Positions 4,061-15,431 of a stretch of 64,000 nt of DNA are shown here, piece after piece; position 1 is the stretch's first letter; every line of letters starts with the position of its first letter. The stretch spans positions 48,936 through 112,935 of the forward strand of contig CAMYKS010000031.1 in the NCBI GenBank assembly GCA_947259115.1, in the 5' to 3' direction. The stretch is from an uncultured Desulfobulbaceae bacterium (lineage in GTDB: Bacteria > Desulfobacterota > Desulfobulbia > Desulfobulbales > BM004). Under the pieces are notes generated by a model that was not told the origin of the DNA, ran no database searches, and saw only the letters and a list, made by a program, of their open reading frames with translations. The position numbers and the translations under genes were made by a program.

Positions 4061-4592
4061 AATTGTAAGTTTTATAAAAAAGTTAACTCCCCTTGGCAAT
4101 AATTTCACCCAGTATTGTATAACTTCTGAGTATAAACTATTTTAAATTAAGTATCCATTTGCATGCAGGGTAACAGGTGTTTGAAATGCCATTGAGCAAT
4201 TCAGGTAAAATCAGTGGAGTTACGGAAGTGACCGGTAGAACTAAATGGCTTATTCTCTGCAGGGACAATATTATACCTTGCAGAATGGCCTGCAAAACTA
4301 TAAAAGAAAGTGGCTCTAGGAGCCTGTCGGAAAATTATAATCGTAACGAAAAAATGAGGAATTGAGTTCAAATTTTTGGAAAGTTGATGCGAATAGCAGC
4401 GCTATTTAAAGAAAATTTACGGAAATTTGAGCCGATTCTCTCGCTTTTGCGGTAGATTGGTAATTCTCCGACAGGCTCCTAGGGAAACTGCTACATAAAC
4501 TCCTTACTTAAAGAGATTTCTGCGCATAATTATGCCGGGTCTGCGCAAATAGCAGCGGGAAACTTCAAGTGTACGATTATCAGGAGGACAAA
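4061..4592. other. Intergenic region carrying a MITE
   Basis: This 530-bp gap between divergent genes is mostly filled by the MITE at 4316-4482. A 62-codon open frame at 4177-4365 runs into the left end of the element, has no ribosome site, and is rejected. The remainder presumably holds the two divergent promoters, but I cannot name one with confidence. Confidence 0.5.
4316..4482 (+). mobile_element. Complete 167-bp MITE with perfect terminal inverted repeats
   Basis: The element starts CTAGGAGCCTGTCGGA and ends with its exact reverse complement, giving 16-bp perfect terminal inverted repeats. It is too short to encode anything. The outermost CTAG on both sides is either part of the repeat or a duplicated CTAG target; insertion at CTAG/YTAR is known for some IS5-family elements. 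Two truncated copies occur at 17136-17233 and 46134-46238. The core around GCGAATAGCAGCGCTATTTA is shared by all three. No transposase that could mobilise it lies in the window. Confidence 0.85.
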
Positions 4593-5090
4593 ATGTTTAA
4601 TAAGCTGTTTGTTGCTTGTTTTTGCCTAATTTTCTTCTTTGCTCTTGTGCAGGGATCATATGCACAGGAGCCCTTGGAAGAGGGTGATTTTATAATTGAG
4701 GAAGAGATCGAGGCGGAATTTAAGACAGAACTCCAGGAAGGAGAGCAAAAACCACGGTTCATAACCTCTCAGGTGCTTACTCCAAAAGAAGTGAAACCTG
4801 CCATTGAATTCTATGTTCGCACCGATATCAGTCAAAAATTTTTGGGCCTGATAGCCGATCTCAATCTAGGCAAGATATACGGCGTCATGCAGGAGGGTAA
4901 AACAGCGACAATATACTTTGACTACAGTTATGTCTCGGTCAGGAACAAAGATAATATTCTTTATGAAAAAGGAAAAATAACATTTATAAAATTCAATTCA
5001 GGTAAATGGTTTAATGCCGAACTTTCCATGTTTCTCTTTGATTCATACCCCTTGGTGACCAAAAAAGAACAACAGGAAAAGGAGGAATAG
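4593..5090 (+). CDS. Uncharacterised secreted protein
   Basis: A 165-residue protein with a clear signal peptide (MFNKLFVACFCLIFFFALVQ..., cleavage likely after GSYA, before QEPLEEG). An acidic segment follows (about residues 24-50), then a compact C-terminal domain of about 100 residues with alternating beta-type patterns. I do not recognise the family. ATG 4593 is favoured over an in-frame start at 4569 because AGGAGG sits at 4582-4587 and because it places the signal peptide correctly. It precedes the EndoQ-helicase gene by 71 bp on the same strand, but a functional link is unproven. Confidence 0.75.
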   Translation: MFNKLFVACFCLIFFFALVQGSYAQEPLEEGDFIIEEEIEAEFKTELQEGEQKPRFITSQVLTPKEVKPAIEFYVRTDISQKFLGLIADLNLGKIYGVMQEGKTATIYFDYSYVSVRNKDNILYEKGKITFIKFNSGKWFNAELSMFLFDSYPLVTKKEQQEKEE

Positions 5091-5161: not shown

Positions 5162-8100
5162 GTGAGGTACATAGCTGATCTACATATCCATTCGCCTTTT
5201 TCCAGGGCTACGAGCAAATCAAGCAACCTGGCCGGATTGGCTGCCTGGAGTGCTGTAAAAGGGATCGATGTAATTGGCACAGGTGATTTTACCCACCCCG
5301 GCTGGTTCCGGCAGTTGCGGGAAAGTCTGCAACCTGCTGAGCCTGGATTTTTCAAGCTCAAGGATGGTGACATTCCCCGGATTTTTGAGGCTGTTTCGAC
5401 TGAAAAAGCACAATCCTGCCGTTTTGTCCTCACTGCGGAAATCAGTTCAATTTATAAAAGACACTCCATTGTAAGAAAAATTCACAATATTCTTTTTGTC
5501 CCTGATTTTGTCTCTGCTTCAAGAATAAATGCACGACTGGCAGGTATAGGCAATATCGAATCGGACGGCAGGCCCATCCTCGGGCTCGATGCCCGTGATC
5601 TGCTAGAAATAGTGCTGGAGCTGGCCCCGGATGGTTTCCTGGTGCCTGCACATATCTGGACCCCCTGGTTTTCATTGTTCGGTTCCAAGTCAGGATTTGA
5701 TTCCATTGACGACTGTTTCGGCGATTTGAGCAAATATATTTTTGCCCTTGAGACCGGCCTGTCCTCTGACCCTGATATGAACCGCCTGGTATCGGCCCTG
5801 GACCGTTTCAGCCTTATTTCAAACTCAGATTGTCATTCTCCCGGAAAACTTGGCAGGGAGGCAAATCTTTTCACCTGCGGATTTAATTTTTATTCCATGC
5901 GGGATGCCCTGAAAAATCCAGCCCTTGGAGGGTTCCAGGGAACCGTTGAATTTTTCCCGGAAGAGGGCAAATACCACCACGACGGCCATCGCAAATGCTC
6001 CATTAATTTGAGGCCGCAAGAAACCCGGAAAATTGGCTCAATCTGCCCGGTCTGTTCTAAACCGCTTACCATTGGAGTCATGCACAGGGTGATGGAGCTT
6101 GCTGACCGGGAAACTCCGCATTACCCTCCAAATTCTCCACAATTTTACAGTCTCATTCCCCTGGCCGAGGTGTTGGGTGAAATATTCTCCCGGGGGTCTA
6201 CCACGAAGACAGTAATGCATGAGTATGCCAAGCTTATCAGGCTGTTTGATTCCGAATTCAATCTCCTGCTCAATGTATCGGTGGCTGAGATCAGCCAGCG
6301 GTATTCCCCCGTCCTGGGAGAGGCGGTGAATCGTATTCGCAAGGGCAAGGTCATCCGAAAGGCCGGTTTTGACGGAGAGTTCGGGATCATAAAGGTTTTT
6401 GACGAGGGAGAATTAAAAAGGCTGATCGGCCAGTTCTCTCTTTTTAAAACTGATCGGCCGAAAAAAAAAAGAGATACTCAACCTAAGCCTTCACTGCTCA
6501 AATTCGCTGCGTCCCAAAAGGATAAAAATACCCCGTCTGCACCAAAAAGCCTTAACAAAGAACAGCTGGAGGCTGTTACATCAAGGGCCCACCATATTGT
6601 AGTTACCGCAGGACCGGGTACAGGGAAAACGTATACCCTTGTTGCCAGGATAGAAAGGCTGCTGAAAAAAGCCGGAGTCAATGCCCGGGAGATCACGGCA
6701 ATAACCTTTACAAACCGTGCTGCCGAGGAAATGCGAGAACGGCTGGCCTCTCTGCCTGGAATAAATATTGAGCAGCTCTTTGTCGGAACCTTTCATGCCT
6801 TCTGCCTCCAGCTACTGCGGGAAAATGACAAGGAGCTGACAGTTGTTGCCGACGACCGGCGCGATAAAATTTTAAAGAGGCTGTTCCATGCTTTGTCGCC
6901 AAAGGATTTCAAGGAAATAAAACAAGACATCGAGTCGCATTACCAGCGGATTGCCACCGGGGCAGGGGAGAATGGAGCCCGGGAAATCACGCCCCGTGCT
7001 TCCGCCTATCTCAAGGAACTTGATAAGAGACATGGTATTGATCTCAGTGGAGTCATTCCAGAGGTTGTCTTGCGCCTGAAAAACAACAGGGCTCTACTGC
7101 AAAAAACTCACGCAGCCCTAAAATACCTATTTATTGATGAATTCCAGGACTTGAACAGGGCCCAGTTTGAACTTGTACGGATTTTGGCCCAAAAGAGTTC
7201 CGTCTTTGCAATCGGCGATCCTGACCAGGCAATTTATGGCTTCCGTGGCAGCAATCCGGAATTTTTCCACCGTTTCATAAGTGAATTCGGTGCAGAAACC
7301 ATATCCCTGACAAGAAATTACCGGTCAGCCGAGAAAATCCTCAAAGCTGCTGCCGCTGTTATTGCAAAGAATCATAACTCTGGGACAAATCATTGCAGCA
7401 GGCTCATCCCGGAACACCCTGAACCTGGAAGCATTGAACTGTATCAGGCAGTATCACCCCTGGCTGAGGCTGAGTTTATTGTCCAGCGCATAGAGGAATT
7501 GATGGGCGGGATCAGTCATTTCTCCATTGATTCAGGGCGTGGCTCTGCAGACAAGTCTGAAGCTGCAAGAAGTTTCGCGGATTTTGCCATACTCTATCGT
7601 CTGTCGCAGCAGGCGGAATACCTGCGTGAAGCACTTGAACGCAGGGGTATCCCGTTCCAGATTGTAAATGCCAGACCCTTTTTCATGCACCGGGATATAA
7701 GGCCGCTTTATTACTGGATCAGGGCTGCGACGGAATCAGAGCCGGATGGTATTGAAACCGAGGTCTATCTCCAGCTGTTGCGGACCTTTCCCGGGGTTGG
7801 TGAAAACACCCTGTCATTACTGGAAAATCAGTTGCCGCTGGGAGGATGCCCTGATTTTTTTATGCGGGCAGCAGAAATAAAAATGCCGAAAGCGGCAAAG
7901 GATAGAATCAAGGATGTGCAGCGGCATTTACTCGCTTTTCGGAATGAGGTTGACGAAAAGGGGCTTTCGGGTCCGGCAGCCGCCATCACGAAATACCTGC
8001 GAATTAATGCTAAAACAGCTGCCGCCAAACGGTTTCTGGAGCTTGCCGGTTCATTCGGCTCTGATCTGCAGGAATTTGCGGCTTACTTAAAAAAGAATGA

Positions 8101-8494
8101 GTCAGCAACAGTGTATGATGAGAAAGCCGAGGCGATTTCCCTTATGACCATGCATGGTGCCAAAGGCCTTGAGTTTCCCGTTGTCTTTATCACAGGAATG
8201 GAGGAAGGGATATTTCCCTGCCGTTTATCCAAGGGTGGGCAGGAAGACGATAAAAATATTTTTGCAGCACCCACCTCCGTCCACGAGGAGAGACGCCTGT
8301 TCTATGTAGGGATGACACGGGCCCAGGACTCGCTCATTCTGACTTGTGCCGCAACACGGCCCATTTTCGGCAGCTACCAGAACCGACCAGTATCTCAATT
8401 TATAGCGGAAATTCCTGTTTTACTTTACGAGCAGAGAGTAAGCAAGAAGCCGAGAAAGAAAAAAGCAGCCTCAAAACAGATGAAGCTTTTTTAA
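5162..8494 (+). CDS. EndoQ-type PHP nuclease fused to UvrD/Rep helicase
   Basis: A 1110-residue two-part DNA repair protein. Residues 1-about 425 match the EndoQ family (TIGR00375), a PHP-fold endonuclease known to nick 5' of deaminated bases (hypoxanthine, uracil, xanthine) and AP sites. Visible are D6-x-H8-x-H10, the GTGDFTHPGW segment (D42, H45), E93, H108, H164, D223/H225 and a zinc site with H276, C279, C295 and C298 leading into KPLTIGVMHRVMELADR. Residues about 460-1095 are an SF1A helicase: Walker A GPGTGKT 484-490, Walker B with D659-E660, GDPDQAIYGFRG, the TMHGAKGLEF motif and VGMTRAQ. QFSLF (424-428) in the linker and QMKLF at the extreme C-terminus look like beta-clamp-binding pentapeptides. 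The start is GTG with a weak ribosome site, but the family N-terminus fits it exactly. Confidence 0.9.
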   Translation: MRYIADLHIHSPFSRATSKSSNLAGLAAWSAVKGIDVIGTGDFTHPGWFRQLRESLQPAEPGFFKLKDGDIPRIFEAVSTEKAQSCRFVLTAEISSIYKRHSIVRKIHNILFVPDFVSASRINARLAGIGNIESDGRPILGLDARDLLEIVLELAPDGFLVPAHIWTPWFSLFGSKSGFDSIDDCFGDLSKYIFALETGLSSDPDMNRLVSALDRFSLISNSDCHSPGKLGREANLFTCGFNFYSMRDALKNPALGGFQGTVEFFPEEGKYHHDGHRKCSINLRPQETRKIGSICPVCSKPLTIGVMHRVMELADRETPHYPPNSPQFYSLIPLAEVLGEIFSRGSTTKTVMHEYAKLIRLFDSEFNLLLNVSVAEISQRYSPVLGEAVNRIRKGKVIRKAGFDGEFGIIKVFDEGELKRLIGQFSLFKTDRPKKKRDTQPKPSLLKFAASQKDKNTPSAPKSLNKEQLEAVTSRAHHIVVTAGPGTGKTYTLVARIERLLKKAGVNAREITAITFTNRAAEEMRERLASLPGINIEQLFVGTFHAFCLQLLRENDKELTVVADDRRDKILKRLFHALSPKDFKEIKQDIESHYQRIATGAGENGAREITPRASAYLKELDKRHGIDLSGVIPEVVLRLKNNRALLQKTHAALKYLFIDEFQDLNRAQFELVRILAQKSSVFAIGDPDQAIYGFRGSNPEFFHRFISEFGAETISLTRNYRSAEKILKAAAAVIAKNHNSGTNHCSRLIPEHPEPGSIELYQAVSPLAEAEFIVQRIEELMGGISHFSIDSGRGSADKSEAARSFADFAILYRLSQQAEYLREALERRGIPFQIVNARPFFMHRDIRPLYYWIRAATESEPDGIETEVYLQLLRTFPGVGENTLSLLENQLPLGGCPDFFMRAAEIKMPKAAKDRIKDVQRHLLAFRNEVDEKGLSGPAAAITKYLRINAKTAAAKRFLELAGSFGSDLQEFAAYLKKNESATVYDEKAEAISLMTMHGAKGLEFPVVFITGMEEGIFPCRLSKGGQEDDKNIFAAPTSVHEERRLFYVGMTRAQDSLILTCAATRPIFGSYQNRPVSQFIAEIPVLLYEQRVSKKPRKKKAASKQMKLF

Positions 8495-9514: not shown

Positions 9515-9859
9515 TTATAACTTAAGCACCAGTTTCAATCCCTCATCAACTTGGTCTATTATTTCTCGGGAAATGGTGTGAACCTTTTTGGACAAAAATG
9601 ATTTATCAATGGTGATAATTTGAGAAACGTTAACAACGCTTTCCTTTGGTAACTTTGAATTTTCAGGGGAGAGGAATACGTTTCCCGGGGCTGCTGCCAA
9701 ACGGATATTTGATGTGATTACGACTGCAATAATTGTATTGATCTTGCTTTTATTAAAGTCGTCTGATTGGACAATGAGTACAGGTCTTTTGTAACCAGGT
9801 CCTGAACCAACAGGCTCCGGAAGTGCGGCCCACCAAATTTCCCCTCGCTTTTTTACCAT
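9515..9859 (-). CDS. MazF/PemK-family toxin (endoribonuclease)
   Basis: A 114-residue protein of the MazF/PemK family, which cleaves mRNA at short specific sequences. It begins with the characteristic RGEIWWAALPEPVGSGPGYKRPVLIVQSD core, including the conserved R-P-V-L-I-V strand and the S/D after it. Its ATG overlaps the last codons of the antitoxin gene (ATGGTAA), the usual translational coupling of toxin-antitoxin pairs. Length and motif spacing suggest it is intact. Confidence 0.9.
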   Translation of the reverse strand: MVKKRGEIWWAALPEPVGSGPGYKRPVLIVQSDDFNKSKINTIIAVVITSNIRLAAAPGNVFLSPENSKLPKESVVNVSQIITIDKSFLSKKVHTISREIIDQVDEGLKLVLKL

Positions 9860-10089
9860 TCTTCTTTTTTTATCGAACTCAATTGCATGTTTGAAAGGGT
9901 TTTATTCAATTCTGCAGGTTCGGATGAATAAATTTCATCAAGTTGTTTGGTGATGTGGTCAGAAGGGTGCATTTCGAGATATTGAGCAACAGCCTTAGCA
10001 AATAGCTCGCTGCGGGAGTAACCGTGTTTTTGGGCATATTGATCAACTTTACGAAATAATTTGTCCGGAATAGAAATTGCTGTTTTCAT
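9853..10089 (-). CDS. Ribbon-helix-helix (CopG-type) antitoxin
   Basis: A 78-residue protein starting MKTAISIPDKLFRKVDQYAQ, a typical ribbon-helix-helix DNA-binding N-terminus, with SRSELFAKAVAQYLE as the second helix. The polar C-terminal half would wrap the toxin. It overlaps the downstream mazF-like gene by 7 bases, so the two form one toxin-antitoxin operon. The DNA-binding part probably autoregulates the promoter around 10100-10250. An in-frame upstream start at 10155 lacks RHH similarity and is rejected. Confidence 0.88.
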   Translation of the reverse strand: MKTAISIPDKLFRKVDQYAQKHGYSRSELFAKAVAQYLEMHPSDHITKQLDEIYSSEPAELNKTLSNMQLSSIKKEEW

Positions 10090-10268
10090 TATTTGAGTAT
10101 AACCAAGGTAATACCCTGTGTCAAATTGTATTTTTTCGCAGTCCACCGGGCCCAATAACCAGGTATTTCCTGTTTTCCTCCCTTGGCTTAGCCCCCTTTA
10201 ATTTAACGTTCCAGCTACGCTGGCCATTTGTTTGATGTCATCTTCAGTATGTTATATTTGCTGGGCTG

Positions 10269-13550: not shown

Positions 13551-15431
13551 ATGGCAACCCAAGAAAGTAATAATAAATTGGCGCCTGCTTCCAAAAGCAG
13601 CAAAACAGCCTCCGGACCTTTGACTGCAGATTTTCTTCGCTCCGTACCCACGGGTCCTGGTGTATATCTCATGAAGAACCGGCAGGGACAGATCCTCTAT
13701 GTGGGCAAGGCAAAAAATCTGCGCAAAAGAGTATCTTCCTACCAGAGGGTGAATCCCAAAATTTCGCCGAAGACGGCTTTGCTGCTCAGCAGGGTTGCTG
13801 CAGTTGAAACGATCCTTACCCGTACGGAAAAGGAGGCCTTTATCCTTGAGGCCTCACTGATCAAGAAACACCGGCCAAGATTTAATATCGACTTAAAGGA
13901 TGACAAGAGTTACCCCCGCATCAAGGTAACTCTGGGCGAAGAGTGGCCCAGGGTGTTTGTGACCCGCCGTCGTATCAAGGACGGCAGCAGGTATTTTGGC
14001 CCATATTCCTCAGCCGGGGCCATGCGCAATACGTTGAACATTATTAAAAGGCTGTTCCCATTGCGCAGATGCAAGGGCAGGAACTTAAAAAAGAGGGGGC
14101 GTCCTTGCCTGAACTACCAGATGGGGCATTGTCTGGCCCCCTGCAGCGGCAAGGTTGGAAAAGAACAGTACAGTAGAATGGTTACAACTATTCTCATGGT
14201 CCTGGAGGGCAGGAACAGGCAGCTGCGGGCTCAATTGGAAACTGAAATGCAGCGGGCCGCAGAAACCCTTGAATTTGAAAAGGCGGCCCTTGTCCGTGAT
14301 AATCTGCAGGCTCTGGCAAAAACCCTTGAGAAACAGGTGGTGGTCAGTAATCTTGACAGGGATCAGGATGTTTTCGGCTATGTACGGAAGGGTGCCGGAG
14401 TTGGTATCGCTGTGATGAATGTCAGGCAGGGTATAGTTTGCGGACAGCAGGTGTTTTTCCTCCTCGATCCCATCGGCGATGACAGCGAGGTGTTAAGAGA
14501 AGTCCTGAGACAATACTACACCCGGGAACAAAGGGTTCCGGATGAGCTGTTACTGCCTTTTCAGGTTGCGGACCATGCTTTTCTTGTTGAGTGGCTGGGC
14601 GACATGCGCGGCAAGGGTGTCCAGCTGCGGGTTCCTAAACGCGGCCAGGGATTAAAACTGCTGCACATGGCAGCAGCAAATGCCAGGCAGATCCATATTG
14701 ATCAGGTAAACAGAGAAAGAAGCTGGCAGGAACTGGCCAGAAACCTGCAGACCAAACTCCACCTTCGATCTTTCCCTGCCAGAGTAGAATGTCTGGATAT
14801 TTCCAATATAGGCGGCAAGCAGCCTGTGGGCTCCCTTGTCTGCTTTATGGACGGTGAAAAAGCTCCAAAGGAGTACAGGCATTACTCTATCAGCGGCGCT
14901 CACGAACCGGATGATTACCGCATGATGGCAGAGGTTTTGGCCAGGCGTTTTGCCGTGGATGACAAACAGAAAACACTCCCTGACCTGCTGGTTATTGATG
15001 GGGGCAAGGGGCACCTTAATGTTGCCAGGGATGTATTGCTGGAAAAGGGGTTGCAGAGTAAGGTGGAACTGGTGTCCATTGCCAAGGACAAGGAGAACAG
15101 GACCGATAAGATCTACCGGCCCGGCAGGAAAAACCCGATCAGCCTGGTGCGCCATTCGCCCGTGCTTTTCTTCCTGATGCAGATACGGGATGAATCCCAC
15201 AGGTTCGGTATTACCTTTCATCGCAGGCTGCGCCGCAAAAGCACCCTTGCCTCGGAACTCGACCATGTGCCGGGAATCGGTCCTGCACGCAGAAAAACTT
15301 TACTGAAAACCCTGGGAAGCATGGCTAAGATCAAAAAGGCTGCGCCCGAGGAATTTGCATCGGTTCCGGGAATAGGTCCGGAACTGGCTGCACAGATATG
15401 GGATTTTTTCAACACCAAGCAGAAAGGATAA
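13551..15431 (+). CDS. uvrC: Excinuclease ABC subunit C
   Basis: A 626-residue dual-incision nuclease of nucleotide excision repair. The N-terminal GIY-YIG domain shows GVYLMKNRQGQILYVGKAKNLRKR. A cysteine cluster (CLNYQMGHCLAPCSG) follows, then a UVR motif (about residues 225-260, LEFEKAALVRDNLQAL). The C-terminal RNase-H-like nuclease has its acidic and His residues in ECLDISNIGG, LLVIDGGKGHL and RDESHRFGITFHR. Tandem helix-hairpin-helix motifs close the protein (VPGIGPARRKTLL, VPGIGPELAAQI). The first 25 residues are a non-conserved extension. A DUF166 gene begins 7 bases after the stop, so the two are probably co-transcribed. Confidence 0.96.
   Translation: MATQESNNKLAPASKSSKTASGPLTADFLRSVPTGPGVYLMKNRQGQILYVGKAKNLRKRVSSYQRVNPKISPKTALLLSRVAAVETILTRTEKEAFILEASLIKKHRPRFNIDLKDDKSYPRIKVTLGEEWPRVFVTRRRIKDGSRYFGPYSSAGAMRNTLNIIKRLFPLRRCKGRNLKKRGRPCLNYQMGHCLAPCSGKVGKEQYSRMVTTILMVLEGRNRQLRAQLETEMQRAAETLEFEKAALVRDNLQALAKTLEKQVVVSNLDRDQDVFGYVRKGAGVGIAVMNVRQGIVCGQQVFFLLDPIGDDSEVLREVLRQYYTREQRVPDELLLPFQVADHAFLVEWLGDMRGKGVQLRVPKRGQGLKLLHMAAANARQIHIDQVNRERSWQELARNLQTKLHLRSFPARVECLDISNIGGKQPVGSLVCFMDGEKAPKEYRHYSISGAHEPDDYRMMAEVLARRFAVDDKQKTLPDLLVIDGGKGHLNVARDVLLEKGLQSKVELVSIAKDKENRTDKIYRPGRKNPISLVRHSPVLFFLMQIRDESHRFGITFHRRLRRKSTLASELDHVPGIGPARRKTLLKTLGSMAKIKKAAPEEFASVPGIGPELAAQIWDFFNTKQKG

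Follow-up and report, generated by a model that had tools for sequence, protein, structure and literature searches.

The 64,000-nucleotide stretch from an uncultured Desulfobulbaceae bacterium analyzed here (contig CAMYKS010000031.1, positions 48,936 to 112,935; hereafter the window) carries a gene whose product joins an endonuclease Q (EndoQ)-like nuclease to a UvrD-type helicase in a single polypeptide (Table 1). The original prediction, made from the sequence alone, described one uninterrupted frame of 1110 codons, and this is what we find; the GTG start of the gene aligns with the ATG start of its orthologues. Chimeric assembly and fortuitous joining can both be ruled out because the same full-length architecture is seen again in dozens of independent genomes, at identities of 42-80%.

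The N-terminal module is related to EndoQ and to no other PHP family that we could detect. Residues 5-410 match the NCBIfam profile TIGR00375 with an E value of 1.5e-49, and the only PDB matches of this part are EndoQ structures (5zb8, 7k30 and 7k31), the best being PfuEndoQ (5zb8, 2.4e-51); no other PHP family scores for it in NCBIfam, and there is no PHP-family Pfam match at an E value of 0.001. The DxHxH motif, the GTGDFTHPGW motif and the H/C-C-C zinc site that the original prediction named are all present. In PfuEndoQ, E76, H84 and H139 are zinc ligands, and H139, G169 and S171 form the walls of the base pocket (PMC8307549); these residues, together with H8, H10, D193 and H195 of the archaeal enzyme, all align with the window protein, the last two with D223 and H225. 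The mapped residues H8, H10, E93, H108, H164, G199, S201, D223 and H225 are identical in an order-level alignment and in a wider bacterial comparison, and the catalytic residues of both nuclease and helicase are invariant across 42 fusions. The proposed assignment to TIGR00375 itself stands only in part: the match is clear, but its 169.4 bits, over positions 2-374 of 374 of the profile, lie below the curated cut-off of 326.6 bits. Next to the metal site, all bacterial rows aligned with the module carry an insertion roughly 8 residues long (EISSIYKR...KIHN), and the first zinc cysteine of PfuEndoQ is replaced by histidine in 19 of 19 of them (HCCC versus CCCC). Given the score under the cut-off, the common insertion and the HCCC site, the window nuclease is therefore, as judged from sequence, EndoQ-type but a member of a sister subfamily in bacteria, and not a TIGR00375 equivalog.

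The second half of the protein is the full superfamily 1A (SF1A) helicase that had been predicted, with motifs I-VI complete. Residues 463-1103 match the PcrA/UvrD/Rep family at 2.5e-98, and Pfam returns UvrD-helicase (4.9e-57) and UvrD_C (2.2e-43). Besides the motifs in Table 1, GDPDQAIYGFRG at aa 685-696 and MTMHGAKGLEFPVVF at aa 995-1009 are present, and Q689, R695, R721 and K1001-G1002-E1004 are also invariant in the 42 fusions. The helicase reaches none of the curated equivalog cut-offs, scoring 330 of 911 bits for PcrA, 304 of 1144 for UvrD and 291 of 951 for Rep; it lacks the Tudor-like C-terminal tail that is present in all full-length PcrAs of relatives, and fused and split helicases group separately from same-order PcrAs (SH-aLRT 100). 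The source genome holds a separate PcrA of its own, split across contig ends.

An AlphaFold2 model built from the 42 fusions (mean predicted local distance difference test score, pLDDT, 85.6; predicted template modeling score, pTM, 0.56) consists of two confident bodies, a disordered linker (aa 429-460) and a disordered tail (aa 1096-1110). By Foldseek the EndoQ module superposes on PfuEndoQ with a TM score of 0.88-0.89 and a root-mean-square deviation of 2.4 (TM 0.89 for 5zb8), and the helicase on UvrD-DNA complexes with a TM score of about 0.74-0.76 by target length. The middling pTM fits two modules that may move independently, and the model does not fix their relative placement.

Two pentapeptides, one ending the EndoQ module and one ending the protein, resemble docking motifs for the beta clamp, DnaN. 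The consensus of bacterial clamp motifs is QL[S/D]LF, more generally QxxLF (PMC12309361); both window pentapeptides match it, lie in exposed, low-pLDDT stretches and are putative DnaN-binding sites. At the C terminus, Q1106 is invariant in alignment A2, and the pattern Q[LMI]x[LMI][FLI] lies within the last 15 residues of 72 of 79 complete fusions, at the extreme end in 54 of them, versus a mean of 0.3 and a maximum of 3 in 500 shuffles of the tails. Other genes of the same loci have it in 7 cases out of 471 (last nine residues considered), and complete housekeeping PcrAs of relatives in the same order in none of 21; these have the Tudor-like tail instead. The internal motif, Qxx[LM]F where the EndoQ module ends, occurs in 50 of 90 fusions (1.1 in shuffles, maximum 5). 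The separate helicases of split loci end in QLKLF, QLKLF, QLTLF and QLKLFLQ; a separate clade of standalone EndoQs has its own C-terminal motif in 15 of 17 members, and standalone proteins nested among the fusions keep the motif in only 2 of 15. Archaeal EndoQ has a C-terminal PIP box that binds PCNA, which stimulates it, and clamp motifs have previously been noted in a few bacterial EndoQ homologs, from Bacillus and Desulfovibrio (PMC4858679); what is added here is the position and near-universality of such motifs in the helicase fusion. We also observed a version with a shorter helicase, 936-984 aa in length, without the internal motif and with QLSLF or QLDLF at its C terminus (loci L056-L068, L073, L081, L086 and L093, in Elusimicrobiota, Melainabacteria and alphaproteobacterial metagenome-assembled genomes, MAGs); that these form one tight clade over three phyla suggests gene transfer.

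Table 1. The EndoQ-UvrD fusion gene and its features in the window (nucleotide positions within the 64,000-nucleotide stretch)
Feature	Residues	Coordinates	Strand	Basis and remarks
EndoQ-UvrD fusion gene	1-1110	5162..8494	+	1110 codons; GTG start; TAA stop at 8492-8494
EndoQ-like PHP and zinc-domain endonuclease module	1-423	5162..6430	+	profile and PDB matches, model
PHP motif I, DLHIH (H8, H10)	6-10	5177..5191	+	aligned with PfuEndoQ H8/H10
Predicted zinc ligand E93 (PfuEndoQ E76)	93	5438..5440	+	alignment; role from PMC8307549
Predicted zinc ligand H108 (PfuEndoQ H84)	108	5483..5485	+	alignment; role from PMC8307549
Predicted zinc ligand and base-pocket wall H164 (PfuEndoQ H139)	164	5651..5653	+	alignment; PMC8307549
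ETGLS, predicted base pocket (G199/S201 = PfuEndoQ G169/S171)	197-201	5750..5764	+	alignment; PMC8307549
Zinc site H276-x2-C279...C295-x2-C298	276-298	5987..6055	+	alignment
QFSLF, internal putative beta-clamp-binding motif ending the EndoQ module	424-428	6431..6445	+	family counts; model pLDDT drops
Disordered linker	429-460	6446..6541	+	pLDDT about 35; not conserved
SF1A helicase, UvrD/PcrA-like	463-1094	6548..8443	+	profile matches, model; without PcrA C-terminal Tudor-like tail
Walker A, AGPGTGKT	483-490	6608..6631	+	G488, K489, T490 invariant in 42 fusions
Walker B, DEFQD	659-663	7136..7150	+	D659, E660, Q662, D663 invariant in 42 fusions
Helicase motif VI, RLFYVGMTRAQ	1045-1055	8294..8326	+	R1053 invariant in 42 fusions
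QMKLF, C-terminal putative beta-clamp-binding motif	1106-1110	8477..8491	+	family counts; disordered tail, pLDDT < 50

A survey of relatives bears out the fusion as the common form. The EndoQ family is found in 148 of 258 genomes of the class. In roughly 105 of the 148 its gene is a single frame of 800 aa or more, in about 33 it measures 370-490 aa and in about 10 it falls in between (our count from the open-frame column, some of the intermediate frames lying at contig ends); no second EndoQ was found in the source genome. Scanning 84,980 species genomes yielded at least 590 relatives, and the best 80 of these place the fusion in at least 15 bacterial phyla: Thermodesulfobacteriota, Myxococcota-labelled MAGs, Elusimicrobiota, Melainabacteria (Gastranaerophilales), Actinomycetota, Pseudomonadota, Spirochaetota, Chloroflexota, Bacteroidota, Balneolota, Calditrichota, Planctomycetota, Binatota, Gemmatimonadota and Verrucomicrobiota. 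Many of the carriers are MAGs, and isolates are represented as well (Geobacter argillaceus, Desulfovibrio sp. ZJ369, Fodinibius roseus, Saccharothrix algeriensis, Dactylosporangium siamense, Plantactinospora endophytica and Phytoactinopolyspora halophila). Bacterial EndoQ-like proteins are, by the class survey and the species-genome scan, not limited to the "few bacteria" of the original prediction.

A tree of 128 EndoQ rows has one clade of 17, all of them standalone, and another of 105, most of them fused but interspersed with standalone rows. Since the latter sit nested among fusions, an old fusion followed by repeated helicase loss is the simplest reading of this sequence tree; the ancestral state, fused or standalone, is not decided by it, because the PfuEndoQ branch, with a length of 8.1 when used as the root, is too long. 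Within the order, standalone, fused and split forms share one slot beside tadA, dnaX and recR. The two genes are separate but adjacent at L022, where they overlap by 4 bases, at L098 in Omnitrophota, where 10 bases lie between them, and at L060; these splits look real, and the one in L023 could stem from a frameshift or an assembly error. That the two modules occur fused or as adjacent genes links the nuclease and helicase functions.

The genomic setting bears on whether the protein could be a phage-defense nuclease-helicase, acting with a Gabija-like logic against DNA with deaminated or uracil-substituted bases. A possible antiviral role of Bacillus EndoQ has been cited (PMC8307549), and the helicase matches PADLOC GajB models, with a best score of 271.7 bits; the PcrA score is higher (330 bits), however, so that the GajB match reflects generic UvrD similarity. 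The fusion is present in most members of its order, its neighbors there are the housekeeping genes dnaX, recR and tadA rather than defense islands, and its product ends in a replication-clamp motif. In Desulfobacterales the gene adjoins dnaN-gyrB, and in a Melainabacteria MAG it lies one gene away from dnaN. No fusion was found in 50,697 phage records, 72,556 plasmid records or viral contigs. With this absence and the housekeeping synteny we reject a role as a defense system, which we hold to be very improbable.

Several features of the surroundings were noted in passing. Directly upstream of the fusion, window positions 4569-5090 (+) hold a small secreted-looking open reading frame (ORF) with a weak DUF3855 match, and beside the gene, at 9515-10155 (-), are two small overlapping ORFs that resemble a MazF/MazE-type toxin-antitoxin pair. 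About 5 kb downstream, the ORF at 13551-15431 (+) reads as UvrC, with the GIY-YIG start SVPTGPGVYLMKNRQG. At two Desulfobacterales loci (L082:2739-3881 and L084:2621-3766) dnaN is separated from the fusion gene, which is divergently transcribed, by a two-gene unit; one gene of the unit is a weak RdgC match and the other has no Pfam match.

Which lesion the enzyme would serve can be approached from the other deamination-repair enzymes of the class. Uracil-DNA glycosylase (UDG) superfamily proteins are present in 239 of its 258 genomes and in the source genome as well, and we reject EndoQ as a replacement for UDG. In genomes at least 90% complete, PF03167 proteins number 2.4 without EndoQ and 1.2 with it (within-family permutation 0/2000); the two mixed genera richest in data (g15 and g22) show little or no such difference, and the excess is only a lead at the level of clades. 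Bona fide endonuclease V (EndoV) is nearly missing from the class, with 12 strong matches in 258 genomes (Fisher p = 0.13 for mutual exclusion of EndoV and EndoQ), and because of this rarity EndoQ may be a main hypoxanthine route there. Distinct from bona fide EndoV, a very divergent EndoV-like protein of about 185 aa (E about 1e-10) occurs in the source genus (G000:C4:7718-8095; also G001, G004, G008 and G174). In an alternative reading, nick, unwinding and clamp tether stay as proposed but the PHP module targets another lesion (abasic sites only, an oxidized base or other damage to the backbone) or has a broader nicking activity. Uracil being already served by the UDG superfamily in most class genomes is in its favor, as are the sister-subfamily score under the TIGR00375 cut-off, the conserved insertion near E93 and H108 and the HCCC rather than CCCC zinc site. 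We nevertheless consider it unlikely: the uracil/hypoxanthine pocket (PfuEndoQ H139, G169 and S171) is invariant in 22 of 22 aligned members of the order and in the 19 bacterial rows, and hypoxanthine would otherwise be poorly served, EndoV being rare.

Taken together, sequence and model give the protein an EndoQ-type module with all published catalytic and pocket residues, a complete predicted UvrD-type motor, a flexible linker and two candidate clamp-docking pentapeptides at disordered or terminal sites. We think it probable that the fusion repairs deaminated (hypoxanthine, uracil) or abasic bases by nicking and unwinding while tethered to the sliding clamp. The beta clamp would recruit it to newly replicated or repairing DNA, where the EndoQ module would flip the damaged base out and cut the phosphodiester bond 5' of the lesion, leaving a 3'-OH and a 5'-phosphate. 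UvrD-type motors move 3' to 5' and typically load at nicks or gaps; here the motor would load at the nick and, moving on the unbroken strand, peel off the strand that begins with the damaged nucleotide, yielding a 5' flap together with a primer end that a clamp-bound polymerase could use. Alternatively, it might track on the cut strand and open a gap on the other side of the nick. Host nucleases would then take off the flap, the clamp-bound polymerase would refill from the 3'-OH and ligase would seal. EndoQ has been reported to nick 5' of the lesion and to leave a 3'-OH and a 5'-phosphate (PMC4357722); which module acts first, which strand the motor uses and which lesion is addressed, cutting at deaminated bases included, we infer.

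Nick-then-unwind action by a single chain is plausible, and several points weigh against the proposal as a whole. The literature covered contains no measured activity for this subfamily, and its base specificity could differ, given the sub-cut-off score, the insertion and the histidine in place of one zinc cysteine. Several lineages (some 13-15 nested standalone rows) keep the nuclease and drop the helicase, and unwinding is therefore not obligatory. The presence of UDG in most of the class is a further such point, and clamp binding by both motifs is putative. The motor might also act first: a clamp-borne helicase would open DNA or clear obstacles and feed the nuclease, the EndoQ module scanning the exposed single strand. 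Common loss of the helicase without the nuclease and the typical loading of UvrD-type motors at nicks or gaps make this order quite improbable to us, though the flexible 30-residue linker would permit either. Reported EndoQs do also cut single-stranded DNA (PMC8307549), as the helicase-first order would have it. As for the clamp tether of the preferred nick-then-unwind scheme, QMxLF variants can be weak binders (PMC12309361).

The original prediction went further, to a self-contained alternative excision pathway in an anaerobe, and this is too strong. The fusion spans at least 15 phyla, including actinomycetes, and the actinomycetes that carry it are aerobes; self-containment is overstated because UDG is also present and because flap-cutting, filling and sealing need other proteins. 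No description of such a fusion was found among 5.39 million open-licence papers, in agreement with the earlier claim of novelty; domain databases probably list the architecture. Beyond that prediction, the analysis adds the two putative clamp-docking motifs, the distribution across the family and the recurrent loss of the helicase; the components of the fusion are familiar, and its breadth and the two motifs would surprise specialists.

In the literature covered, EndoQ is an archaeal enzyme that also occurs in some limited bacterial groups; our data show a distinct EndoQ subfamily across many bacterial phyla, mostly joined to a helicase and tagged with putative clamp motifs. If the proposed mechanism is correct, bacteria would have a widespread third route for deaminated bases, besides glycosylase-started repair and EndoV, and how EndoQ nicks are processed could be tested directly on a single purifiable protein of a cultured organism (such as Geobacter argillaceus, Fodinibius roseus or Saccharothrix algeriensis). 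In its broadest form, which we offer tentatively and with some doubt, the proposal is that a single EndoQ-UvrD protein in at least 15 phyla carries out glycosylase-independent, replication-clamp-coupled excision of deaminated bases by a 5' nick and unwinding of the damaged strand, its two motifs gripping both pockets of the beta clamp, as the bacterial equivalent of archaeal EndoQ-PCNA repair, equipped with a motor of its own.

Among known systems, the closest is endonuclease Q itself (PfuEndoQ PF1551, TkoEndoQ, MacEndoQ and Bacillus pumilus EndoQ; TIGR00375), with which the window protein shares homology over the whole module, the catalytic and pocket residues and the predicted fold (TM 0.89); the clamp-docking motif ends the module where archaeal EndoQ has its PIP box. 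It differs in being only about 31% identical to the Pfu enzyme and below the TIGR00375 cut-off, in its insertion near the metal site and HCCC zinc site, in its fusion to a helicase and in a docking motif of the beta-clamp rather than the PIP type. With UvrD, PcrA and Rep (TIGR01073, TIGR01075 and TIGR01074) it shares all SF1A motifs and, in the model, a UvrD-like fold; its helicase, however, scores about one-third of the equivalog cut-offs, groups apart from same-order PcrAs and, unlike PcrA, has no Tudor-like tail and ends in a clamp motif. Gabija GajA-GajB and other nuclease/UvrD-like pairs likewise couple a nuclease to a UvrD-like helicase, whereas the nuclease here is PHP/EndoQ and not TOPRIM OLD (no OLD-TOPRIM profile matches the fusion protein), nuclease and helicase are one polypeptide, the context is housekeeping, with neither a GajA partner nor a defense context, and clamp motifs are present. 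Incision followed by helicase-driven strand removal would also recall UvrABC with UvrD in excision repair and MutL with UvrD in mismatch repair, by functional analogy only; the fusion would differ from both as a single protein that makes a lesion-specific single nick without a recognition ATPase.

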